A DNA stretch of 64,000 bases from Nocardioides jiangsuensis (GTDB lineage Bacteria; Actinomycetota; Actinomycetes; Propionibacteriales; Nocardioidaceae). The notes beneath the pieces are model-generated. The model saw nothing but the letters and a program-made list of their open reading frames with translations. It was not told the origin of the DNA and did not search any database. Where the stretch lies: positions 372,001 through 436,000 of the forward strand of contig NZ_JAIEZQ010000001.1 in assembly GCF_019679455.1 (NCBI RefSeq). Reading direction: 5' to 3'. Position numbers and translations under genes: made by a program. This document shows, one piece after another, positions 2,438-51,996 of this stretch (position 1 is its first letter; every line of letters begins with the position of its first letter).

Positions 2438-3973
2438 ATGCTGCTCCAGGACGTGGTCGAGGCGTCGCGCGCCGTGGGCGCCACCCGCTCCCGCAAGGCG
2501 AAGACGGAGGCGCTCGCCGCGGCACTGCGCGCGGCCGGGCCCGCCGAGGTCGAGACCGTGACCGCCTACCTGTCCGGGGTGCTCCGGCAGCGCCGCACCG
2601 GGCTCGGCTGGCGCAGCCTCACCGAGCTGCCGCCTCCGGCCGCGACCAGCACGCTGGGGGTCGAGGAGGTGCACGCCACCCTCGAGCAGGTCAGCGCGGT
2701 CGCCGGAGCGGGCTCGCGGCAGGCCCGCACGGACCTGGTCGACGGTCTGTTCGGGCGGGCCACCGCCGAGGAGCAGGAGTTCCTCCGCCGGCTCGTCACC
2801 GGCGAGCTCCGCCAGGGGGCGCTCGACGGGCTGATGCTGGAGGCGATCGCCGCCGCGGCCGACGTGTCCCCGGCCGCGGTGCGCCGGGCGTCGATGCTGT
2901 GCGGGGCCACCGTCCCGGTCGCGGTGGCCGCGCTCACCGGCGGCGAGCAGGAGCTCGCCGGCTTCTCGCTCGAGGTGGGGCGACCGCTGCGGCCGATGCT
3001 GGCCTCCAGCGCCCCCGACCTGCCCGCCGCGGTCGAGAAGGTCGGGCCGGGCGTCGAGCTCGCGGTCGACTGCAAGCTCGACGGGATCCGGATGCAGGTG
3101 CACAAGCACGACGGCGGCGTCCGGGTCTACACCCGCACCCTCGACGACATCACCGACCGGCTGCCCGAGGTGGTCGAGGCCGTGGCCGCGCTCCCCGCCC
3201 GCACGCTGGTGCTCGACGGCGAGGCCATCGCACTCGACGCCGGGGGCCGGCCGCGCCCGTTCCAGGAGACTGCGGCGCGCACCGCGAGCAAGCTCGACGT
3301 GGCGACGCTGCGGACCCGGGTGCCGCTGACGTCGTACTTCTTCGACCTGCTGCACGTCGACGGCGAGGACCTGCTCGACCGGCCCGCCCGCGACCGGTTC
3401 ACCGCGCTGGCCGACGCGCTCCCGGCCGACCTCGTGGTGCCGCGTCTGGTCACCGCCGACGCGCAGGAGGCCGCGGACTACTTCGCGAGCACGGTCGCCT
3501 CCGGCCACGAGGGCGTGGTCGTCAAGGGGCTCGACGCGGCGTACGACGCCGGCCGGCGCGGGGCCTCGTGGGTGAAGGTCAAGCCGCGGCACACGCTCGA
3601 CCTCGTGGTGCTGGCGGTCGAGTGGGGCAGCGGGCGGCGCAGCGGGCTGCTGTCCAACATCCATCTCGGCGCCCGCGACGAGGACGGCGGCTTCGTGATG
3701 CTCGGCAAGACCTTCAAGGGGATGACCGACGAGATGCTCGCCTGGCAGACCGAGCGGTTCCTCGAGCTCGAGACCTCGCGGACGTCGTACGTCGTCCACG
3801 TCCGGCCCGAGCAGGTGGTGGAGGTGGCCTTCGACGGCATCCAGACCTCCAGCCGCTACCCGGCTGGGATGGCCCTGCGCTTCGCCCGTGTCCTGCGCTA
3901 CCGCGACGACAAGCCCGCGGCGGAGGCGGACACGATCACCACGGTCCGGTCCCTGCACACTGGGGAGGCGTGA
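2438..3973 (+). CDS. ligB: ATP-dependent DNA ligase (LigB type)
   Basis: A 511-residue ligase matching mycobacterial LigB in length and N-terminal character. An N-terminal DNA-binding domain (about 1-180) is followed by the adenylation domain with the nucleotidyl-lysine motif CKLDG (K213) and motif V region GVVVKGLDAAYD with WVKVKP, then an OB-fold C-terminus. It would seal nicks using ATP in addition to the essential NAD-dependent LigA (not in this window). The ATG is preceded by CAGAAT about 6 nt upstream and no strong ribosome site, so a leaderless mRNA is likely. Next to the AlkA-like gene it suggests a base-excision-repair context. The pairing with LigB rather than LigC/LigD rests on length and motifs only. 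Confidence 0.9.
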   Translation: MLLQDVVEASRAVGATRSRKAKTEALAAALRAAGPAEVETVTAYLSGVLRQRRTGLGWRSLTELPPPAATSTLGVEEVHATLEQVSAVAGAGSRQARTDLVDGLFGRATAEEQEFLRRLVTGELRQGALDGLMLEAIAAAADVSPAAVRRASMLCGATVPVAVAALTGGEQELAGFSLEVGRPLRPMLASSAPDLPAAVEKVGPGVELAVDCKLDGIRMQVHKHDGGVRVYTRTLDDITDRLPEVVEAVAALPARTLVLDGEAIALDAGGRPRPFQETAARTASKLDVATLRTRVPLTSYFFDLLHVDGEDLLDRPARDRFTALADALPADLVVPRLVTADAQEAADYFASTVASGHEGVVVKGLDAAYDAGRRGASWVKVKPRHTLDLVVLAVEWGSGRRSGLLSNIHLGARDEDGGFVMLGKTFKGMTDEMLAWQTERFLELETSRTSYVVHVRPEQVVEVAFDGIQTSSRYPAGMALRFARVLRYRDDKPAAEADTITTVRSLHTGEA

Positions 3974-12255: not shown

Positions 12256-13191
12256 CTACTCGTCGGGGCGGTCGGGACGGTCCAGCCCCGCCAGGAAACG
12301 TTCGAACTCGGCGCCGATCTCCTCGCCGGTGGGCAGGTCGCGCTCCTCGGCCAGCGGGAGCGCGCTCCCCTCCTCGGTGCTCGGCCGGTGGAAGGCGTCG
12401 TACTGCTGCTCGAGGCCCTGCACCACGTCGCGGACCTCCTCGGAGTCCTCGATCTGCGCGGCGATCTCGGCCATCTTGGTGTCCCCAGCGGTGCGCAGCG
12501 GGCCGAGGTCCCACTCCAGGCCGGTGACGTCCTCGACGGACTCGAGGATGGAGACCGCGGCCCGGGGGTAGTCGAACTGCGCCACGTAGTGCGGGATGTG
12601 CGCGACGAAGCCCATCGCGGCGTGCCCCCACTCCCCGAGCCGCAGCTCGAGCAGCGACTGCGCGCTCGCGGGGATCCGGATCTGCCCCTTCCACACGTTC
12701 TCCTGGATCAGCAGCTCCGGTGACGTGGCGTGGTTGGTCAGCATCACCGGCCGGGTGTGCGGCACCGCCATCGGTACGGCGCCCATGGCGACGGTCAGGC
12801 GCACCCCGAAGTGCTCGACGACCGCACGCACCGCGGACGCGAACCCCTCCCAGTGCATGTCGGGCTCCGGCCCGTGCAGGAGCAGGTACGGCGTCCCGTG
12901 CTGGTCGTGCATCAGCCGCACGACGAGCCGCGGCGCGTCGTACTGCTCGTAGTGGTGCTCGATGAACGTCATCGCCGGGCGCCGGGCGCGGTAGTCGTAG
13001 AAGTCGTCGACCTCGAGGCTCGCGACGACCCGGCCGCTCGACTGCGACAGCAGGTGCTTGGCGGCCAGGTTCGCCGCGTTGCCGGCGTCCAGGAAGCCGT
13101 CGAGCGCGTGCACGAGCACCGGGCCGTCGGTGCGACCCTCGAGCTCGGGCACCTCGTCGACGATGTGCACGAAGCGGGAGGCCTCAGCCAT
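12256..13191 (-). CDS. PAC2-family protein
   Basis: A 311-residue member of the PAC2 (proteasome assembly chaperone 2-like, PF09754) family, recognised from LVHALDGFLDAGNAA near the N-terminus, VASLEVDDFYDYRARRP and the region LTVAMGAVPMAVPHTRP. Actinobacterial members are widespread and of unclear function; proteasome assembly is known only for the eukaryotic relatives. The start MAEASRF has AAAGG at suitable distance. It leads into tesB 11 nt downstream. The last 60 residues are acidic and probably flexible. Confidence 0.88.
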   Translation of the reverse strand: MAEASRFVHIVDEVPELEGRTDGPVLVHALDGFLDAGNAANLAAKHLLSQSSGRVVASLEVDDFYDYRARRPAMTFIEHHYEQYDAPRLVVRLMHDQHGTPYLLLHGPEPDMHWEGFASAVRAVVEHFGVRLTVAMGAVPMAVPHTRPVMLTNHATSPELLIQENVWKGQIRIPASAQSLLELRLGEWGHAAMGFVAHIPHYVAQFDYPRAAVSILESVEDVTGLEWDLGPLRTAGDTKMAEIAAQIEDSEEVRDVVQGLEQQYDAFHRPSTEEGSALPLAEERDLPTGEEIGAEFERFLAGLDRPDRPDE

Positions 13192-13269
13192 CACACAACC
13201 TTTCGTGGCGCGGTCGTTGAACGGAAATCTCCGGCCGCTCGATGCTGGAACGCGGATGACCTCCGCGCT

Positions 13270-13497
13270 ATGCCCGCACCCGAGCAGGATTCCGCCCCAT
13301 TGTCGCAGCCCGGCCTCGTCGAGGAGCTCCGCGCCCGGATCGCCGAGGTGTGCGACCCCGGGACGGCGCCGAGGATGCGGGCCTCCATGCAGTCCGCGAT
13401 GCCCTTCCGCGGGCGTGACGACCGGCACAGCACCGGCTGCTTCCCGGCTTTGTTACCAGCCGGTAGCATCAGGGCGTCATTCCCCTACGACGCATGA
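13270..13497 (+). pseudogene. Truncated N-terminal remnant of a DNA alkylation repair (AlkD-like) gene
   Basis: An open frame of 75 codons. Residues about 13-48 read like the start of DNA_alkylation (AlkD/PF08713) proteins: LVEELRARIAEVCDPG followed by RMRASMQSAMPFRG, close to the family's conserved Y-M-K-S-x-M-P-F-x-G. After RG, at about position 13414, the similarity stops and the frame runs through the fadA promoter to a TGA at 13495. Normal members are 220-240 residues, so most of the gene is missing. The identification is from memory of the family motif, not from a search. Confidence 0.55.
13445..13468. promoter_or_regulatory. Candidate operator/promoter of the fadAB operon
   Basis: Nested inverted repeats lie about 45-60 bp before the fadA start: CCGGCT-N8-AGCCGG (13445-13464) and TTACC-AGCC-GGTAG (13454-13467). 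They overlap TAGCAT (a TANNNT -10 candidate) by position 13465. A repressor bound there would block the promoter. The regulator is unknown. Confidence 0.35.
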
Positions 13498-13508
13498 AGG
13501 AGCCCTTC

Positions 13509-14738
13509 GTGGCCCGACAGTTGCGAGAGGTCGTCTTCGTCGACGGCGTGCGGACGCCGTTCGGCAAGGCCAAGGGTCAGTACGCCGAGACGCGTGCGGA
13601 CGACCTGGTGATCAAGTGCATCCGCGAGCTCATGCGGCGCAACCCCAACCTGCCTCCCGAGCGGGTGGACGAGGTCGCGATCGCCGCCACCACCCAGATC
13701 GGCGACCAGGGGCTGACCATCGGCCGCACCGCCGCGCTGCTCTCGGGCCTGCCCCAGAGCACCCCCGGCTACGCCATCGACCGGATGTGCGCCGGCGCGA
13801 TGACGGCGGTCACCACGACCGCGGGCGGCATCGCGTTCGGCTCCTACGACGTGGTCATCGCCGGCGGCGTCGAGCACATGGGCCGCCACCCCATGGGCGA
13901 GGGCGTCGACCCGAACCCGCGGATCATCTCCGAGAAGGTCGTCGACCCCGAGGCGCTGTCCATGGGCAACACCGCGGAGAACCTGCACGACCGCTACCCC
14001 TCGATCACCAAGCAGCGCGTCGACGCCTACGCCGTCCGCTCGCAGGAGAAGACCGCGCAGGCCTACGCCGACGCGAAGATCCAGCCCGACCTGGTGCCGG
14101 TCGCGATCCGCACCGCGGAGGCCGGCTGGGGCCTCGCCACCGCCGACGAGCCGCCGCGTCCGGGCACCACGATGGAGACCCTCGCGGCCCTGAAGACCCC
14201 GTTCCGCGCGCACGGCCGGGTCACCGCGGGCAACGCGGCCGGCATCAACGACGGCGCCACCGCCTGCCTGCTCGCCGACGAGGAGACCGCCCGCGACCTC
14301 GGCCTGCCGGTGCGGATGCGCCTGGTCTCCTTCTCCTTCGTGGGCGTCGAGCCCGAGGTGATGGGCGCCGGCCCGATCCCGGCGACCGAGAAGGCACTGA
14401 AGCAGGCCGGCCTCACCATCGACGACATCGGCGCGTTCGAGGTCAACGAGGCGTTCGCGGTGCAGGTGCTCGCGTTCCTCGAGCACTTCGGGATCGCCGA
14501 CGACGACGCCCGGGTCAACCCGTACGGCGGCGCCATCGCGATGGGCCACCCGCTCGCCTCCTCCGGCGTGCGGCTGATGACCCAGCTGGCGCGGCAGTTC
14601 GAGGAGCGTCCCGAGGTCCGCTACGGAATGACCACCATGTGCATCGGCATCGGCATGGGCGGCACCGTGATCTGGGAGAACCCGCACTGGGACGGCTCCG
14701 CCGACAAGTCCACGACGAACCAGGAAGGCGCAGCCTGA
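13509..14738 (+). CDS. fadA: Acetyl-CoA C-acyltransferase (FadA, beta-oxidation thiolase)
   Basis: A thiolase of 409 residues from the GTG at 13509, chosen because AAGGAG lies exactly 6 nt upstream; an in-frame ATG at 13494 would add five residues but has no ribosome site. The acylated cysteine is in DRMCAGAMTAV, and the C-terminal active-site pieces FEVNEAFAVQ, GHPLASSGVRL and TMCIGIGMG are present. It carries out the last step of beta-oxidation. Its stop codon overlaps the fadB start (TGATG), so FadA and FadB are translationally coupled, as expected for the two subunits of a trifunctional complex (mycobacterial Rv0859-Rv0860). Confidence 0.93.
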   Translation: MARQLREVVFVDGVRTPFGKAKGQYAETRADDLVIKCIRELMRRNPNLPPERVDEVAIAATTQIGDQGLTIGRTAALLSGLPQSTPGYAIDRMCAGAMTAVTTTAGGIAFGSYDVVIAGGVEHMGRHPMGEGVDPNPRIISEKVVDPEALSMGNTAENLHDRYPSITKQRVDAYAVRSQEKTAQAYADAKIQPDLVPVAIRTAEAGWGLATADEPPRPGTTMETLAALKTPFRAHGRVTAGNAAGINDGATACLLADEETARDLGLPVRMRLVSFSFVGVEPEVMGAGPIPATEKALKQAGLTIDDIGAFEVNEAFAVQVLAFLEHFGIADDDARVNPYGGAIAMGHPLASSGVRLMTQLARQFEERPEVRYGMTTMCIGIGMGGTVIWENPHWDGSADKSTTNQEGAA

Positions 14739-16834
14739 TGACCACCACCCCCGAGCTTCGGGCTCTGCTCGACCGCGGTGCCGCCATGTCGGCGAACGAG
14801 GTGGTCACCGAGGCCAAGGTCCGCGACGTGACGCTGCCGTACGGCGCCGGCACGATGGCGCTGATCACCCTCGACAACGGCCTCGACCACACCCGGCCGA
14901 ACACGTTCGGCCCGAAGAGCCTCGACGCGCTCAACACCGCGATCGACGCGGCGCTCGCCCGCGACGAGGTGACCTCGATCGGCGTCACCGGCAAGCCGTT
15001 CATCCTCGCCGCCGGCGCGGACCTGTCCGGCGTGCCCGGCATCACCGACCGCGAGGACGCCAAGCTGATCGCCCAGATCGGGCACGGCGTGTTCCGCAAG
15101 CTCGTCGACGGCGGCAAGACGTCCTTCGGCTTCGTCAACGGCCTCGCCCTCGGCGGCGGCCTCGAGGTGGCCCTGAACTGCACCTACCGCACGATCATGG
15201 ACTCCGTGCCCGCCGTGGCGCTGCCCGAGGTCTTCCTCGGCCTGGTCCCCGGCTGGGGCGGCGCCTACCTGGTGCCGAACCTGGTCGGCCCCGAGAAGGC
15301 CGTGACGCTGCTCGTCGAGAACGCGCTGAACAACAACAAGATGCTCGGCGGCACCGCCGCGTTCGAGCTGGGCCTGGCCGACGCGGTGTTCGAGGGCGCG
15401 GACTTCCTCGAGCAGTCCCTGCTCTGGGCCGCGCGGGTGCTGACCGGCGAGGTCACCGTCGCGCGTCCCGAGATCGACCGCGGCGAGGCCTGGGCCGCCG
15501 CCGTCGCCAAGGGCCGCGGCATCGCCGACGCGAAGACCGGCGGCGCCGCCCCCGCGGCGTACCGGGCGCTGGACCTGATCGTGCTCGCGCGGACCGCCGA
15601 CCGGGACGAGGCGTTCGCCGCCGAGGACGAGGCGCTCGCCGACCTGATCATGACCCCGGAGCTCAAGGCCGGCCTGTACGCCTTCGACCTCGTGCAGAAG
15701 CGCGCGAAGCGTCCCGCCGGTGCGCCGGACAAGGCGCTGGCACGACCGGTCACCAAGGTCGGCATCGTCGGGGCCGGGCTCATGGCCAGCCAGCTCGCGC
15801 TGCTCTTCGCGCGCCGCCTCGAGGTGCCCGTCGTACTCACCGACCTCGACCAGGCCCGGGTGGACAAGGGCGTGAGCTACGTGCACGCCGAGATCGACAA
15901 GCTCCTGCTCAAGGGCCGGGCGAGCCAGGACAAGGCGAACCGGCTCAAGGCCCTCGTGTCCGGCGCGGTCGACAAGAGCGAGGTCTTCGCCGACGCCGAC
16001 TTCGTGATCGAGGCGGTGTTCGAGGAGCTGAAGATCAAGAAGCAGGTCTTCGCCGACGTCGAGGCGATCGTCTCGCCGGAGTGCGTGCTCGCGACGAACA
16101 CCTCCTCGCTGTCGATCACCGAGATGGCCGCGGACCTCGCGCACCCCGAGCGGGTCGTGGGCTTCCACTTCTTCAACCCGGTCGCGGTGATGCCGCTGCT
16201 CGAGATCGTCCGCGGCGAGCGCACCGACGACGCCGCGCTGGCCACCGCGTTCGCGACCGGCAAGAAGCTGAAGAAGACCACGATCCTGGTCAAGGACAGC
16301 CCGTCGTTCATCGTCAACCGGCTGCTCGGCCGGTTCATGGGCGAGGTCAGCAAGGTCGTCGACGAGGGCACGCCGATCTCGGTGGCCGACAACGCGTTCG
16401 CCGGGGTCGCCCCGATGCCGCCGTTCGTCCTGTTGTCGCTGGTCGGGCCGGCCGTCGCGCTGCACAACAACGAGACCCTGTACGGCGCCTTCCCGGACCG
16501 GTTCTACGTCTCGGAGAACCTCAAGCGGCTCGTGGCCGCCGGCAAGCCGGGGCTCTACGGCCCCGACGGCGCCGTCGACCCCGAGGTCGAGGAACTCTTC
16601 GAGACCCCGGCCGAGCCGGTCGTACTCACCTCCGAGCAGGTGCGCGAGCGCGTCCTCTCCGTGCTCGCCGAGGAGGCCCGTCTCATGCTCGACGAGGGTG
16701 TCGTGGCCGCCCCCGAGGACCTCGACCTCGGCATGATCACCGGGGCCGGGTTCTCGTTCTGGAACGGCGGGCTCACCCCGCTGCTGGACCGGACCGGCGT
16801 CGCGGAGAAGGTCACCGGCTCCACCTTCCACTGA
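14738..16834 (+). CDS. fadB: 3-hydroxyacyl-CoA dehydrogenase / enoyl-CoA hydratase (FadB)
   Basis: A 698-residue fusion. The N-terminal crotonase domain has the oxyanion segment ILAAGADLSG, NGLALGGGLEVALNC with a catalytic Glu, and PEVFLGLVPGWGG with the second. From about residue 340 the dehydrogenase domain has the NAD loop GIVGAGLMASQLAL and the catalytic His in VGFHFFNPV, then the C-terminal helical domains. It hydrates enoyl-CoA and oxidises the 3-hydroxyacyl-CoA in beta-oxidation. AGGAAGG precedes the ATG, which overlaps the fadA stop codon by one base. A strong hairpin terminator follows. Confidence 0.94.
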   Translation: MTTTPELRALLDRGAAMSANEVVTEAKVRDVTLPYGAGTMALITLDNGLDHTRPNTFGPKSLDALNTAIDAALARDEVTSIGVTGKPFILAAGADLSGVPGITDREDAKLIAQIGHGVFRKLVDGGKTSFGFVNGLALGGGLEVALNCTYRTIMDSVPAVALPEVFLGLVPGWGGAYLVPNLVGPEKAVTLLVENALNNNKMLGGTAAFELGLADAVFEGADFLEQSLLWAARVLTGEVTVARPEIDRGEAWAAAVAKGRGIADAKTGGAAPAAYRALDLIVLARTADRDEAFAAEDEALADLIMTPELKAGLYAFDLVQKRAKRPAGAPDKALARPVTKVGIVGAGLMASQLALLFARRLEVPVVLTDLDQARVDKGVSYVHAEIDKLLLKGRASQDKANRLKALVSGAVDKSEVFADADFVIEAVFEELKIKKQVFADVEAIVSPECVLATNTSSLSITEMAADLAHPERVVGFHFFNPVAVMPLLEIVRGERTDDAALATAFATGKKLKKTTILVKDSPSFIVNRLLGRFMGEVSKVVDEGTPISVADNAFAGVAPMPPFVLLSLVGPAVALHNNETLYGAFPDRFYVSENLKRLVAAGKPGLYGPDGAVDPEVEELFETPAEPVVLTSEQVRERVLSVLAEEARLMLDEGVVAAPEDLDLGMITGAGFSFWNGGLTPLLDRTGVAEKVTGSTFH

Positions 16835-22017: not shown

Positions 22018-22722
22018 TCAGCTCTCCACAGCGGCCAGGATCACGCGGACAAGGTCGTCGGGGCGGGTGAGCTGGGGCCAGTGCCCCGTGGGCAGGTCGA
22101 CGAAGTCGACGTCGCGGATGTGCGTGAACTCCCGCACCGGCCCGGCTCCCTCGGCGATCCAGTCGCGGAGCATGCCGGTGGTGTACTCCGTCGCGACCGC
22201 GGTCACGGGAACGTCGTAGCGTCGCTCGTCGACCAGCCGCTGCGGGTCGCGGGTCACGCGCTCGGGCGACGGGACCGACCGCTCACGGAAAGCGGCGCGC
22301 GCCGCCTCGTCCATGTCCGCCAGGTCTTCCGCATCGAACTCCGACCAGGCCGGCAGCGGGACCTCCCCGTTCTCGGCCGGGAAGCCGGCGGCCAGCGCGT
22401 CTCCGTCACCGGTCGGGAAGCCACCGACGTAGACGGCCCGAGCGACGCGGTCCGGACGGGCGTCCACGGCCGCGTGCGCGATGGCGCACCCGGCCGAGTG
22501 CCCGACGAGAACGACCTTCTCGTCCGGGTGGCAGGCGTCGATCTCCCTGGTCACGGCATCCACGTGGTCGCGGAGGGTGACGCGCGAGCGGTCCACGTCC
22601 TTCGACTCCATGCCAGGCAGGGTGAGGGGACGCGCAGAGTGTCCGGCTGCCTCGAGCCCGGGGACGACCTGCTTCCACGAGGATCCGTCCAGCCACAGGC
22701 CCGGAACGAGGATGATCTCCAT
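22018..22722 (-). CDS. Alpha/beta-hydrolase
   Basis: A 234-residue alpha/beta-hydrolase. The nucleophile elbow is VGHSAGC (Ser in G-H-S-A-G); the N-terminal strand IILVPGLWLDGSSWKQVVPGL provides the oxyanion region; the conserved His is in DLPTGHWPQLTRPDDL near the end, and an acid residue lies in the strand before it. The substrate is unknown. Its ATG overlaps the stop codon of the AlkZ-like gene by one base (TGATG), so the two are coupled in one operon, which is worth noting because the partner is a DNA-repair-type protein. Confidence 0.88.
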   Translation of the reverse strand: MEIILVPGLWLDGSSWKQVVPGLEAAGHSARPLTLPGMESKDVDRSRVTLRDHVDAVTREIDACHPDEKVVLVGHSAGCAIAHAAVDARPDRVARAVYVGGFPTGDGDALAAGFPAENGEVPLPAWSEFDAEDLADMDEAARAAFRERSVPSPERVTRDPQRLVDERRYDVPVTAVATEYTTGMLRDWIAEGAGPVREFTHIRDVDFVDLPTGHWPQLTRPDDLVRVILAAVES

Positions 22723-23846
22723 CAGTGACCTCCCGGAAGCACGCCACGCGGCAGCCGGAGGTCGAGCCCGAGCCAGCGAGCCAGGTCCTCGATCTCGCCG
22801 CGCACCGCGGCGGTCATGGCCTGGGTGAGGTCCACGTCCTCGTGGACGGCGTCGACCCGCAGAACGCCGGCCGCGCGGTCGGCGGTGGCGTCGAGCTTCC
22901 CCACCAGGCGGTCGCCGTACAGGATCGGGAGCGCGAAGTAGCCCCAGCGCCGCTGGGCAGCGGGCTTGTACATCTCCAGCTGGTAGTCGAACTCGAAGAG
23001 CTCGGTCGTGCGCCGGCGGTCGTGGACCAGCCGGTCGAACGGGGAGAGCAGCGCCGCCCGACCCGAGAACGGCTGACCCAGCAGGGAGGGGTCGACCCGC
23101 CACGTGCCCTTGACCCCCTCGACCACGGCCGGCTCACCGGCCTCACCCACGTCGTTCGGCTCCATCGGGGATTTCGGAGCCCTGGCGCGGGCGATGCCCA
23201 GAGCTTTCAACCGCCGCTCGTCGAGGATGCGGAGCGCCTCCTCCGCGGGGACCACCGGGTCGTCGGGGTAGACCCGCGTCGCCAGGTCCCACAGCCGCTC
23301 GCGGCCCTTTCGCCCCGCGGTCGCGACCTCGCCGCGCTGCACCATGAAGCCGAGGAGCCTGATCACGTTCTGGTTGTTGGTCCAGCCCGTCGACGTCCAG
23401 GGCACCTCGCACGTGTCCGGGATCTCCCGCGAGGTGAGCGGACCCGAGGAACCGAGCCGGTCCAGGATGTCCAGACGGCACGCCTCGTTGGCCTTGACCC
23501 AGTCGCGGAGGGACTTCTGCCAGTCGCGCAGCTCCCCGGCCCCGGGCCACTCGGCCATCTCGGCACGGAACAGCGCCAGGTCCTCGCTGGGCCGGACCAG
23601 GGCATGCAGCTCGATCAGCGTCCGGTCCCGGAGCGCCGTCGTCAGCTCGCCGCGGTCGTAGGACGACCCGAGCCGGCTCCACGCCACCAGGTCGGCGTTC
23701 GGCGCGACGGCGGCGGTCGGGTCGAGCTGGAGCAGGGTCAGGTGGCGCACCAGGTCGAGCAGGCCGGGCGGCCGCCTGCTGTCCAGGAGCTGCGCCTGCA
23801 CCGCGACGCGGCGGGCGTCGGTGCGGGAGAGCCGGTGCACGGTCAC
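22722..23846 (-). CDS. AlkZ/YcaQ-like winged-helix DNA glycosylase
   Basis: A 374-residue HTH_42 (DUF1006) family protein built of tandem winged helices. Residues 17-19 are QAQ, matching the catalytic QxQ motif of AlkZ (azinomycin resistance glycosylase), rather than QxD of the YcaQ/AlkX branch. Other family features are LTLLQLDPTAAVAPNADLV, PSEDLALFRAEMAEWPG, LLSPFDRLVHDRRRTTELFEF and PAAQRRWGYFALPILYGDRL. Characterised members unhook DNA cross-links or remove bulky alkylated bases. The GTG start has TAGCCT 6 nt upstream, so it is probably leaderless. It is coupled to a downstream hydrolase gene. Confidence 0.85.
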   Translation of the reverse strand: MTVHRLSRTDARRVAVQAQLLDSRRPPGLLDLVRHLTLLQLDPTAAVAPNADLVAWSRLGSSYDRGELTTALRDRTLIELHALVRPSEDLALFRAEMAEWPGAGELRDWQKSLRDWVKANEACRLDILDRLGSSGPLTSREIPDTCEVPWTSTGWTNNQNVIRLLGFMVQRGEVATAGRKGRERLWDLATRVYPDDPVVPAEEALRILDERRLKALGIARARAPKSPMEPNDVGEAGEPAVVEGVKGTWRVDPSLLGQPFSGRAALLSPFDRLVHDRRRTTELFEFDYQLEMYKPAAQRRWGYFALPILYGDRLVGKLDATADRAAGVLRVDAVHEDVDLTQAMTAAVRGEIEDLARWLGLDLRLPRGVLPGGH

Positions 23847-48834: not shown

Positions 48835-51800
48835 CTACTGGGTGTCCACCGCCTCGAGGACGACGTCGGTCGCCGCGCCGAGGTAGGCGGAGGTGACCAC
48901 GAAGGCGGTCCCGGTCGGCAGCGCGCCGGACTCGTCGGCGGCGCTGGAGGCCGCGCTGCCGATGAGCTCGCAGTCGGTGTTGTAGAAGTACAGGTCGAGG
49001 TCGTACGCCGCACCCGACCCGGTCGCCGCCACCTTGTGGGCACCGTCGCCGAAGGACTCCGGCAGGGTGCTGACCCAGCCGTCCGTGCCCTGGCTGGCCG
49101 GCGGGGCGCTGCACGTGCTCGCGAGCTCGGCGCCGACGACGCCGCCGCCGGTCAGGTCGCTGCTCGGGTTGCTGCCGGCGATCGTGAACGTCTCGGTGAA
49201 CGGCTCGTCGAGAGGCGCCGGGGGCAGCGGCGACACCTTCACCGGCGCGTTGCTGAAGACCTGCAGGTCACCGAACTGCGCGTTGGTCTTGGTCTCGCCG
49301 AGCGCGGAGTCGGCCCACAGCCGCACGTAGGACGCCTTCACCGGAGTCGGCAGCGTGAACGTGCGGTAGTGCACGTCGCCCACCGTCGGCCGCGGGATCT
49401 GGTAGTCGAACGCGTCCTTGCCGATCGGCTGCGTCTTCCAGTTCACGCCGTCGTTCGAGGTCTGCAGCGTGAAGGAGCGGACCGCCTCGAAGCGCGACGT
49501 GGTGAAAGCGCTGACCTGGACCTTCGAGATGGTGGCCGGCCGGGCCAGCTTCACCACGGCGTTGCCGGACTTGACGGTCGTCTTCCACCGGGTCTGCTCG
49601 GTGTCGTCGATCAGCGACTTCGCGCCGCCGGTGGTCGAGGAGACGACCTGCGCCCCGTTGGCCTCCGAGGTCAGGTTCGGCGCGACCGCGAACTGCTGCG
49701 AGAGCGTCTGGCCGGCGGCCACGTCGAGCGCGTCGACGGTCCGGGCGCCGTACCCGCGGGCCTGGATGGTCAGCGGGTAGCTGCCCTCGGCGGCGGTCAC
49801 GGTGAAGCGGCCGTCGGCTCCGGTCCGCGCGACCGGGGTGACCCCGGCCTCGAGGGTGCCGAGCATGATCCGGGCGTCGGCCACCGGGTCGCCCGAGGAG
49901 GCGTTGACCACCCGGCCGGCGAGCACCCCGTTGCGCTCGGGGTTCTGGTGGGCGAACGACGGGACGGGGTCGATGTCGCCGGCGCCGGTCTCGTCGGCCT
50001 CGCTCTTCTGGTTCGAGGCGCCGGTGCCCATGCCGTGGTCGGCGAACGCGCCGTACACGACGTCCTGGAGCACGTCGAAGTCCGCCCGCGAGTGGTAGCG
50101 GATGTCGAGCGCCTTGAGGATCGCGTCGCGCATGTCGAGCATGCTCGGGTCGTTGGGAGCCAGCGGCATCCCGTCGGTGACGATGAACGAGGCGACCTCC
50201 GCGGCCTCCTGCTCACCGAGCTCGGCGACGAGGGCCTGGCGCATGTCCCACAGGGTCGCGGTCCAGATCTCGCCGTCGGAGTGCACCTCGGGGCCGCCGA
50301 GGTCGTAGCCGATGTCGCCGAAGTTGGCCTCGGTGTCGTCGTAGGCCCAGTTGCGGATGCCCCGCTCCTCGTTGCCGGTCACGTAGGTGCCGACCACCGA
50401 GTTGTCCTGGAGCCCCTCGCGGTGCAGGTGGTTCAGCGCGTACCAGTCGCCCCAGCCCTCGCCCATCGAGCCGGACTGGTGCCCGCCGAGCGCGCCGTCC
50501 TCGGTGCCGACGTAGCGGTTGGACAGGCCGTGGGCGTACTCGTGCTCGATCACCCCGGCGTCGAAGTCGCCGTCGCGGCAGGGCCCCTCGAACGCGTCGT
50601 TGATCGGCTCCCACAGGAACATCCCGCTCCACGGCGGGATGCCGTCGGGCAGCGTCAGCATGTAGGCGTTGTCGCGGCCGGTGTACGTCGGGGCGCCGCC
50701 GCTGATCGCGCCGGCCTGGACCAGGCCCATGATCGGGTCGCCGCCGTCGGCCTGGAAGTTCCCGGCGCTCTCGGTGAACCCGTAGGAGTAGAACTCGTCG
50801 TGGATCCGGTTGTGCTGGTAGAAGAGGTTCGTCGACGAGGCGTCGGAGTCCTGCTCGTACGCCGGCGGGACCGCCTGGCACTCCGAGGTCTCCCACGCGT
50901 TGGGGAAGCCGAAGTTGAACTGGCCGGTCGGAGCCACGGTGCGGTTCGCCTGGTCGAGCGGGGCGATGAAGTTCGACCAGTTCTTGAAGGTGTCGGCGTT
51001 GTTGCCGAGCGTGGTCACCCCGATCCCGGTGAGGCCGGTCGGGTCGACGTACCCGCCGGGCGACTCGGCGGTGGGCCCGAAGCTGACCTTCTCCTGCTCG
51101 CCGCCCTGCGGGGCGCCCGGGTAGTTCTCGTAGACCAGGCCCTCGGCCTCGTGCTGCACCAGCGAGGTCTTGTAGAGCACCTCGCCGGTCTGCGCGTCGA
51201 CGACCATGTCCCAGGCCTCGTCGAGCTTGTTCACGAAGAGCACGCGGTAGGCGGCGCGGGCGCCGTCCGCGGTCGGGAACGCGGCCTTCTGCACGTAGGA
51301 CTGCGAGGCCAGGCCGGTCTCGAAACGGTCGAAGCCGGCGACGTCGCCGTCGGCCCTCGGCGCCAGCGACGTGACGCCGAGGGCGGCGCCGGCCCTGGTC
51401 AGGGCAGCCGCGGCGGTGAGCCCGTACGAGCCGAGCAGGTCGCTGTCCGGGGCCACCTCCCCGGTGAATGCCAGGACCCGGCCGGCGCCGTCGACCGCGA
51501 GGCCCATGGAGCCTCCGCGGACGGTCCGGACCCCGGCGACGGTCTGGGTGAAGTTGACGACGTGCACGTCGACGCCGGTGAGCCTGTGGTCGCGGGTGAC
51601 CGCGAGGGCGGCGACCTCGGCCGAGCTGAGCCCGAAGGCGGCGCGGTTGGCGTCGACGAAGGCGCGGGCGACGTCGACCGCGGACCCGTCGCGGGGCGCG
51701 GAGAGGGCCTCGCCGGGCGCCGGGTAGATCGTGCGCGGAGTGCCGAACTCGGTGTCCCAGGTGACCCGGGCGCCGCTGCCGGCCCGCGCGACCAGCTGCT

Positions 51801-51996
51801 TGACCGCGTCGACGCGGCTGCTGTCGGGCCGGACCAGCGGGTTGCCGGTGCGGCTGTCCTCGGCCGCGTGCCCGGACGGGGTGGCCAGGGAGTGCTCGGT
51901 GACTGCCTCGGCTGCGGGGAGCAGTCCGCCGGCGGCGAGGGTGGCAGCCGACGTGGCGAGGATGGTCGCGACAGCTGCGGAACGGCGGAGGCGCAT
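48835..51996 (-). CDS. Secreted M36 (fungalysin) metallopeptidase
   Basis: A 1053-residue secreted protease. A signal peptide (to about residue 31, ending PAAEA) is followed by an FTP propeptide domain (MGLAVDGAGRVLAFTGEV), then the M36 catalytic domain with zinc site HEYAH (codons at 50530-50544) and the third ligand in GSMGEGWGDWYAL. Past residue about 640 there are a carboxypeptidase-regulatory-like repeat (VVNASSGDPVADARIML), a discoidin/F5-8C-like module (SFTLQTSNDGVNWKTQPIG) and a C-terminal beta domain. It would cleave external proteins for nutrition. It is a single gene with a strong terminator. Confidence 0.93.
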   Translation of the reverse strand: MRLRRSAAVATILATSAATLAAGGLLPAAEAVTEHSLATPSGHAAEDSRTGNPLVRPDSSRVDAVKQLVARAGSGARVTWDTEFGTPRTIYPAPGEALSAPRDGSAVDVARAFVDANRAAFGLSSAEVAALAVTRDHRLTGVDVHVVNFTQTVAGVRTVRGGSMGLAVDGAGRVLAFTGEVAPDSDLLGSYGLTAAAALTRAGAALGVTSLAPRADGDVAGFDRFETGLASQSYVQKAAFPTADGARAAYRVLFVNKLDEAWDMVVDAQTGEVLYKTSLVQHEAEGLVYENYPGAPQGGEQEKVSFGPTAESPGGYVDPTGLTGIGVTTLGNNADTFKNWSNFIAPLDQANRTVAPTGQFNFGFPNAWETSECQAVPPAYEQDSDASSTNLFYQHNRIHDEFYSYGFTESAGNFQADGGDPIMGLVQAGAISGGAPTYTGRDNAYMLTLPDGIPPWSGMFLWEPINDAFEGPCRDGDFDAGVIEHEYAHGLSNRYVGTEDGALGGHQSGSMGEGWGDWYALNHLHREGLQDNSVVGTYVTGNEERGIRNWAYDDTEANFGDIGYDLGGPEVHSDGEIWTATLWDMRQALVAELGEQEAAEVASFIVTDGMPLAPNDPSMLDMRDAILKALDIRYHSRADFDVLQDVVYGAFADHGMGTGASNQKSEADETGAGDIDPVPSFAHQNPERNGVLAGRVVNASSGDPVADARIMLGTLEAGVTPVARTGADGRFTVTAAEGSYPLTIQARGYGARTVDALDVAAGQTLSQQFAVAPNLTSEANGAQVVSSTTGGAKSLIDDTEQTRWKTTVKSGNAVVKLARPATISKVQVSAFTTSRFEAVRSFTLQTSNDGVNWKTQPIGKDAFDYQIPRPTVGDVHYRTFTLPTPVKASYVRLWADSALGETKTNAQFGDLQVFSNAPVKVSPLPPAPLDEPFTETFTIAGSNPSSDLTGGGVVGAELASTCSAPPASQGTDGWVSTLPESFGDGAHKVAATGSGAAYDLDLYFYNTDCELIGSAASSAADESGALPTGTAFVVTSAYLGAATDVVLEAVDTQ

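Follow-up and report, generated by a model that had tools for sequence, protein, structure and literature searches.

Which kind of element occupies the gap between the PAC2-family gene and the fadAB operon of Nocardioides jiangsuensis? The stretch of DNA analysed (64,000 nucleotides, hereafter the window) contains at this place an open frame of 75 codons, reading from ATG to TGA (13270–13497, plus strand) and nested in a longer open frame. An initial annotation, made without database searches, had taken it for the remnant of an AlkD-type DNA repair gene, joined by a deletion to the fad operon region. The features of the locus are:

12256–13191, minus strand: PAC2-family gene, divergent, which marks the site in relatives (PF09754, E 9.7e-58)
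13270–13413, plus strand: AlkD-like (PF08713) 5' stub of 48 codons (matches to alkD of relatives, profile E 1.5e-8)
13411–13415, no strand: probable deletion junction, between the end of the alkD-like reading and the start of the fadA block; the exact base is not resolvable
13415–13508, plus strand: conserved fadA upstream region, the GTGACGACCGGCACA block (14 aligned fadA upstream regions of the family)
13452–13467, plus strand: palindrome GTTACC-N4-GGTAGC (position and alignment of upstream regions)
13464–13469, plus strand: -10-like hexamer TAGCAT, overlapped by the palindrome (position and alignment)
13495–13497, plus strand: TGA ending the 75-codon frame and touching the fadA ribosome-binding region (position)
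13497–13502, plus strand: Shine-Dalgarno-like AAGGAG (position)
13509–14738, plus strand: fadA, acetyl-CoA C-acyltransferase (TIGR01930, 424.9 bits, cut-off 240.55)
14738–16834, plus strand: fadB, the next gene of the operon (79–80% identical to fadB beside fadA in relatives G035 and G003)

Pfam does not detect the stub. Neither PF08713, for which the initial annotation had suggested a search, nor any other family matched the 75-residue frame at E ≤ 10, no family matched the stretch 13222–13413 at E ≤ 0.001, and the PF08713 gathering cut-off of 21 bits was not reached. As Pfam was silent, a profile was built from the AlkD-like genes of relatives. It comprises 36 sequences from 37 candidates (one short sequence was dropped), including a duplicate (L002 = L057), a fragment of 35 residues (L074) and a sequence that lacks the N-terminus (L085). 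Searched against the 976 stop-to-stop frames of the window with at least 20 codons each, this profile matched the stub frame with 30.4 bits (E 1.5e-8) as the sole hit under E 5, the runner-up having E 5.4. Direct comparison gave E 3.8e-11 with the AlkD-like gene of G035 (62% identity, query residues 7–48) and E 1.4e-10 with that of G002 from the same genus (50%, residues 1–48). Both these genes belong to PF08713 (E 2.2e-57 and 4.5e-63; 194.6 and 213.2 bits, respectively), while no NCBIfam family was found for the two whole proteins. Some match to the 75-residue frame at E ≤ 1 occurs in 50 of 58 genomes of relatives, but these are mostly weak and at chance level. The descent from an AlkD-type gene is thus borne out by the gene matches and the profile, and the initial estimate of about 36 matching residues agrees with the ungapped core.

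The match covers profile positions 6–52 of 241, short of a full-length domain. With the unbroken AlkD-like DNA glycosylase genes of relatives the stub shares about 45 N-terminal residues, the gene position and the orientation; it differs in that some four-fifths of the domain is absent, which leaves it below Pfam detection. The PF08713 domain is built of HEAT repeats, and the region with the catalytic residues presumably falls in the missing part. Having lost about 80% of the domain, the stub would be unable to give a working enzyme. No other copy is apparent: the genome contains no PF08713 match, and the intact G002 protein, searched at E ≤ 1e-8, finds the stub only. Hence, no other recognisable member of the family keeps the function.

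The unbroken gene stands at the same site in relatives. At E ≤ 1e-8, the G002 protein is matched in 57 of 149 genomes of the family, counting the window's stub and a second relic in G003; the PAC2 neighbour is found in 135 of the 149 at E ≤ 1e-60, and fadA at E ≤ 1e-170 in at least 26, with 12 candidates scored in each genome. An unbroken alkD lies beside PAC2, and divergent from it, in seven genomes (G002, G035, G014, G082, G086, G118 and G115). Except in G035, each of these genes matches almost the full profile in a single frame; the G035 gene is likewise unbroken and has a PF08713 match. One TGA occurs inside the match in G014, G082 and G115, yet the single-frame match extends to profile position 240/241, so that this codon is the gene's own end. 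In three of the seven (G035, G014 and G082), fadA follows alkD on the same strand, whereas in G002 the whole alkD is followed by dxs, with no fadA at that place. The surviving part thus has significant homology and an unbroken orthologue at the same site, as is expected of a 5' relic pseudogene.

The end of the match at about position 13414, described initially as abrupt, is indeed sharp. The alkD-like reading closes with ATG CCC TTC CGC GGG (M P F R G), the last codon being 13411–13413, and at 13415 the conserved block upstream of fadA (GTGA...) sets in. From here on, the order GTGACGACCGGCACA ... TTTGTTACCAGCCGGTAGCAT ... AAGGAG ... GTG is that of the fadA upstream region of relatives, and the block is common to relatives whose DNA farther upstream differs. 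Fourteen such regions, the window's included, were aligned; G166, G131, G087 and G113 failed the start pattern and were left out. The initial GTGA is kept in 12 of the 14 (exceptions G096 and G159), the GTTAC half of a GTTACC-N4-GGTAAC-like palindrome in 13 (exception G159), and a TA-n3-T hexamer overlapping the other half in all. Since the block matches the fadA upstream DNA of relatives, the 27 codons that close the 75-codon frame most likely represent fadA promoter DNA that is open by chance.

The roles as -10 element and operator are suggested by position and conservation. The palindrome at 13452–13467, found in most of the aligned regions, is perhaps a candidate operator of a beta-oxidation regulator. 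A promoter and terminator scan of 13150–13550 found nothing, the sigma-70 consensus used being ill-suited to a GC-rich genome; inverted repeats in 13180–13520 are short and uninformative, and an alignment by eye of the alkD promoter region allowed no firm conclusion. The alignment also points to the start of fadA. GTG is present at the codon 13509 in the 14 aligned genomes, the window's included, which makes it most likely the start in preference to ATG 13494; the latter falls on the fadA ribosome-binding site.

We propose, with a probability of roughly 0.94, that the feature is the scar of a deletion: the 5' stub of a pseudogene, bordered on either side by an upstream region that was kept. 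An AlkD-like DNA glycosylase would once have been encoded in the gap between the divergent PAC2 gene and fadAB. Everything from about codon 48 of alkD to the edge of the fadA upstream block would then have been deleted, so that 144 bp of the alkD 5' end remain; the left flank (the gap between PAC2 and alkD, expected to hold the PAC2 promoter) and the fadA promoter region would both survive. Read against relatives, the deletion would measure about 1.1 kb (G035) or about 3.3 kb (G082). The mechanism may have been illegitimate recombination between sites with little or no sequence in common, and selection to preserve both promoters may have set the limits of the deletion. With unbroken copies at the site in relatives, the fusion by deletion put forward in the initial annotation remains the best explanation. 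The locus records the loss of one gene in a lineage of the Nocardioidaceae, the junction being placed within a few bases. Prokaryotic pseudogenes and gene remnants have been surveyed (PMC522871). Like such pseudogenes, the stub is a shortened homologue of a gene whose intact form occupies the corresponding site in relatives, and no distinguishing feature was found. It is a pseudogene stub of the ordinary kind at the junction of a deletion, new only as a single instance.

Could the 75-codon frame instead be an independent small gene, or a leader peptide controlling fadAB through coupling to fadA? The frame is open, and its stop touches the Shine-Dalgarno-like region of fadA, so that coupling is conceivable. 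We nevertheless consider this very unlikely. The codons past 13413 are fadA upstream DNA conserved in relatives, the frame's strong relatives are the N-termini of alkD genes and relics, and the G003 relic is frameshifted. Moreover, the -10-like hexamer at 13464–13469 is present in 14 of 14 aligned regions, which would place the start of the main fadA transcript downstream of the stub. An equally slight chance is given to a more elaborate form, according to which alkD was repeatedly gained and lost in the slot between the PAC2 and fadAB promoters, and the stub has been recruited as a leader ending on the fadA ribosome-binding site, so that the expression of fadAB is coupled to read-through from the former promoter of alkD.

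Even less probable is that alkD was never whole here and that a short fragment of it was inserted between PAC2 and fadA. Such an insertion would suit the arrangement in the distant group g7, where PAC2 directly adjoins fadA in all 20 genomes listed with a close fadA (the aligned ends are about 120–260 bp apart) and where alkD, if listed, sits elsewhere. As g7 has no alkD between the two genes, the site is not alkD-bearing throughout the family, and it is the nearer relatives that indicate the direction of change. Among these, G002 and genomes of groups g12 and g5 have an unbroken alkD in the same orientation and at a similar distance from PAC2. Furthermore, the stub begins at the start codon of alkD itself, in the start context ATGCCC common to seven of eight other aligned genomes (G003 differs). 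The simplest history would be an entry of alkD into the PAC2–fadA gap in the ancestor of g1, g5 and g12, followed by partial or whole losses in several lineages. The least likely explanation is a misjoining of distant pieces in assembly or sequencing, for although the exact junction is known from one genome only, the window lies within a 1.79 Mb contig of a four-contig genome estimated to be 99.99% complete, no remainder of alkD was found elsewhere in that genome, and G003 has an analogous truncated alkD beside fadA.

In G003, a member of the same genus, alkD is broken as well and abuts fadA, with an end point unlike that in the window; the same gene is thus truncated beside fadA in two genomes of one genus. 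The relic (L030, L106) is readable over reference residues 52–116 (tblastn E about 7e-14 to 8e-14; profile E 8.3e-20), and its start is frameshifted. Both relics are a broken alkD between PAC2 and fadA with the fadA upstream block present, but that of G003 is readable about 40 codons further and is frameshifted near the N-terminus. Phylogeny is of little help. A tree of PAC2, dxs and acn was built for 18 genomes, of which G088 was half filled. The careful reconstruction groups the window's genome with G003 at 66/45, and FastTree places G003 with G001 and G002 at 0.205; both values are weak. One ancestral deletion with later decay and two separate events are both possible. The differing end points and the frameshift in G003 perhaps fit separate histories, short of proof.

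Run on 69 loci that total 610 kb, overlaps included, and contain 10,289 frames, the same profile returned alkD genes, the G003 relic and a fragmented gene of G116, the next match having E 2.2. At E ≤ 5, no further relic at the site beyond chance was found in the searched stretches of G068, G076, G088, g7 and the alkD-less g5 genomes. In G068 (g12), fadA and PAC2 are separated by 3.3 kb (L086, 1436–4705) containing no alkD and no relic detectable by the profile. The alkD-like gene of G116 is in pieces, with three matches in two frames, and lies away from the PAC2 locus (L113, G116:C4:80000–82500). Judging from this case, decay of alkD may not be confined to the PAC2–fadA site.

The codons of the stub were compared with those of relatives. 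The frame has remained open, with G or C at 36 of 36 third positions, as would be expected also of a frame still coding; in GC-rich DNA this counts weakly against a relic. Differences from G035 at the three codon positions number 4, 6 and 8 over 26 codons, counts too few for conclusions on selection. In the YMKS motif, the stub has S for Y and Q for K, while Y is present in 18 of 18 compared rows and K in 17 (R in the other). These rows, 16 of them distinct, were chosen by the pattern M[PA]F.G, so that agreement there is by construction; 19 of the 36 profile rows failed the pattern and were left out. The changed Y and K may reflect a loss of constraint, although the comparison spans no more than 36 codons.

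The stub had also been seen, together with AlkA-like, ligase and AlkZ-like genes, as a sign of shuffling of alkylation repair functions. Two of these genes were located in the window:

2438–3973: ATP-dependent DNA ligase, full (domain matches)
22722–23846: AlkZ-like gene between strictosidine-synthase-like and RibD_C genes, about 9 kb from the stub (family match; no NCBIfam family found)

This wider claim found no support. AlkZ-like genes are family-wide, with matches in 148 of 149 genomes and six (one partial) in the window's genome, no HhH-GPD domain is found in the window, and nothing was found to tie these genes to the stub. The four HhH-GPD (AlkA-type) matches of the genome all lie outside C1:372001–436000; the AlkA-like gene is thus not confirmed by HhH-GPD, the one AlkA model applied. 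One ground for calling the region an 'alkylation repair cluster' is thereby removed.

Replacement of AlkD by an AlkZ-like protein was considered and rejected. Since 148 of 149 genomes have an AlkZ-like gene and 57 of 149 an alkD-like match (E ≤ 1e-8, two relics included), the presence of AlkZ alone fails to explain why alkD was lost. No counterpart of the window's AlkZ-like gene turned up, with thresholds of E ≤ 1e-15 and 40% identity, in the dxs–acn stretches of G003, G002, G035, G068, G096 and G112 (that of G002 was read in two pieces, acn being cut by the contig end). G014 carries a 67% homologue in the region. Elsewhere in the window, 48835–51996 encodes a large metallopeptidase of family M36 (fungalysin-type) that carries an F5/8-type C domain.
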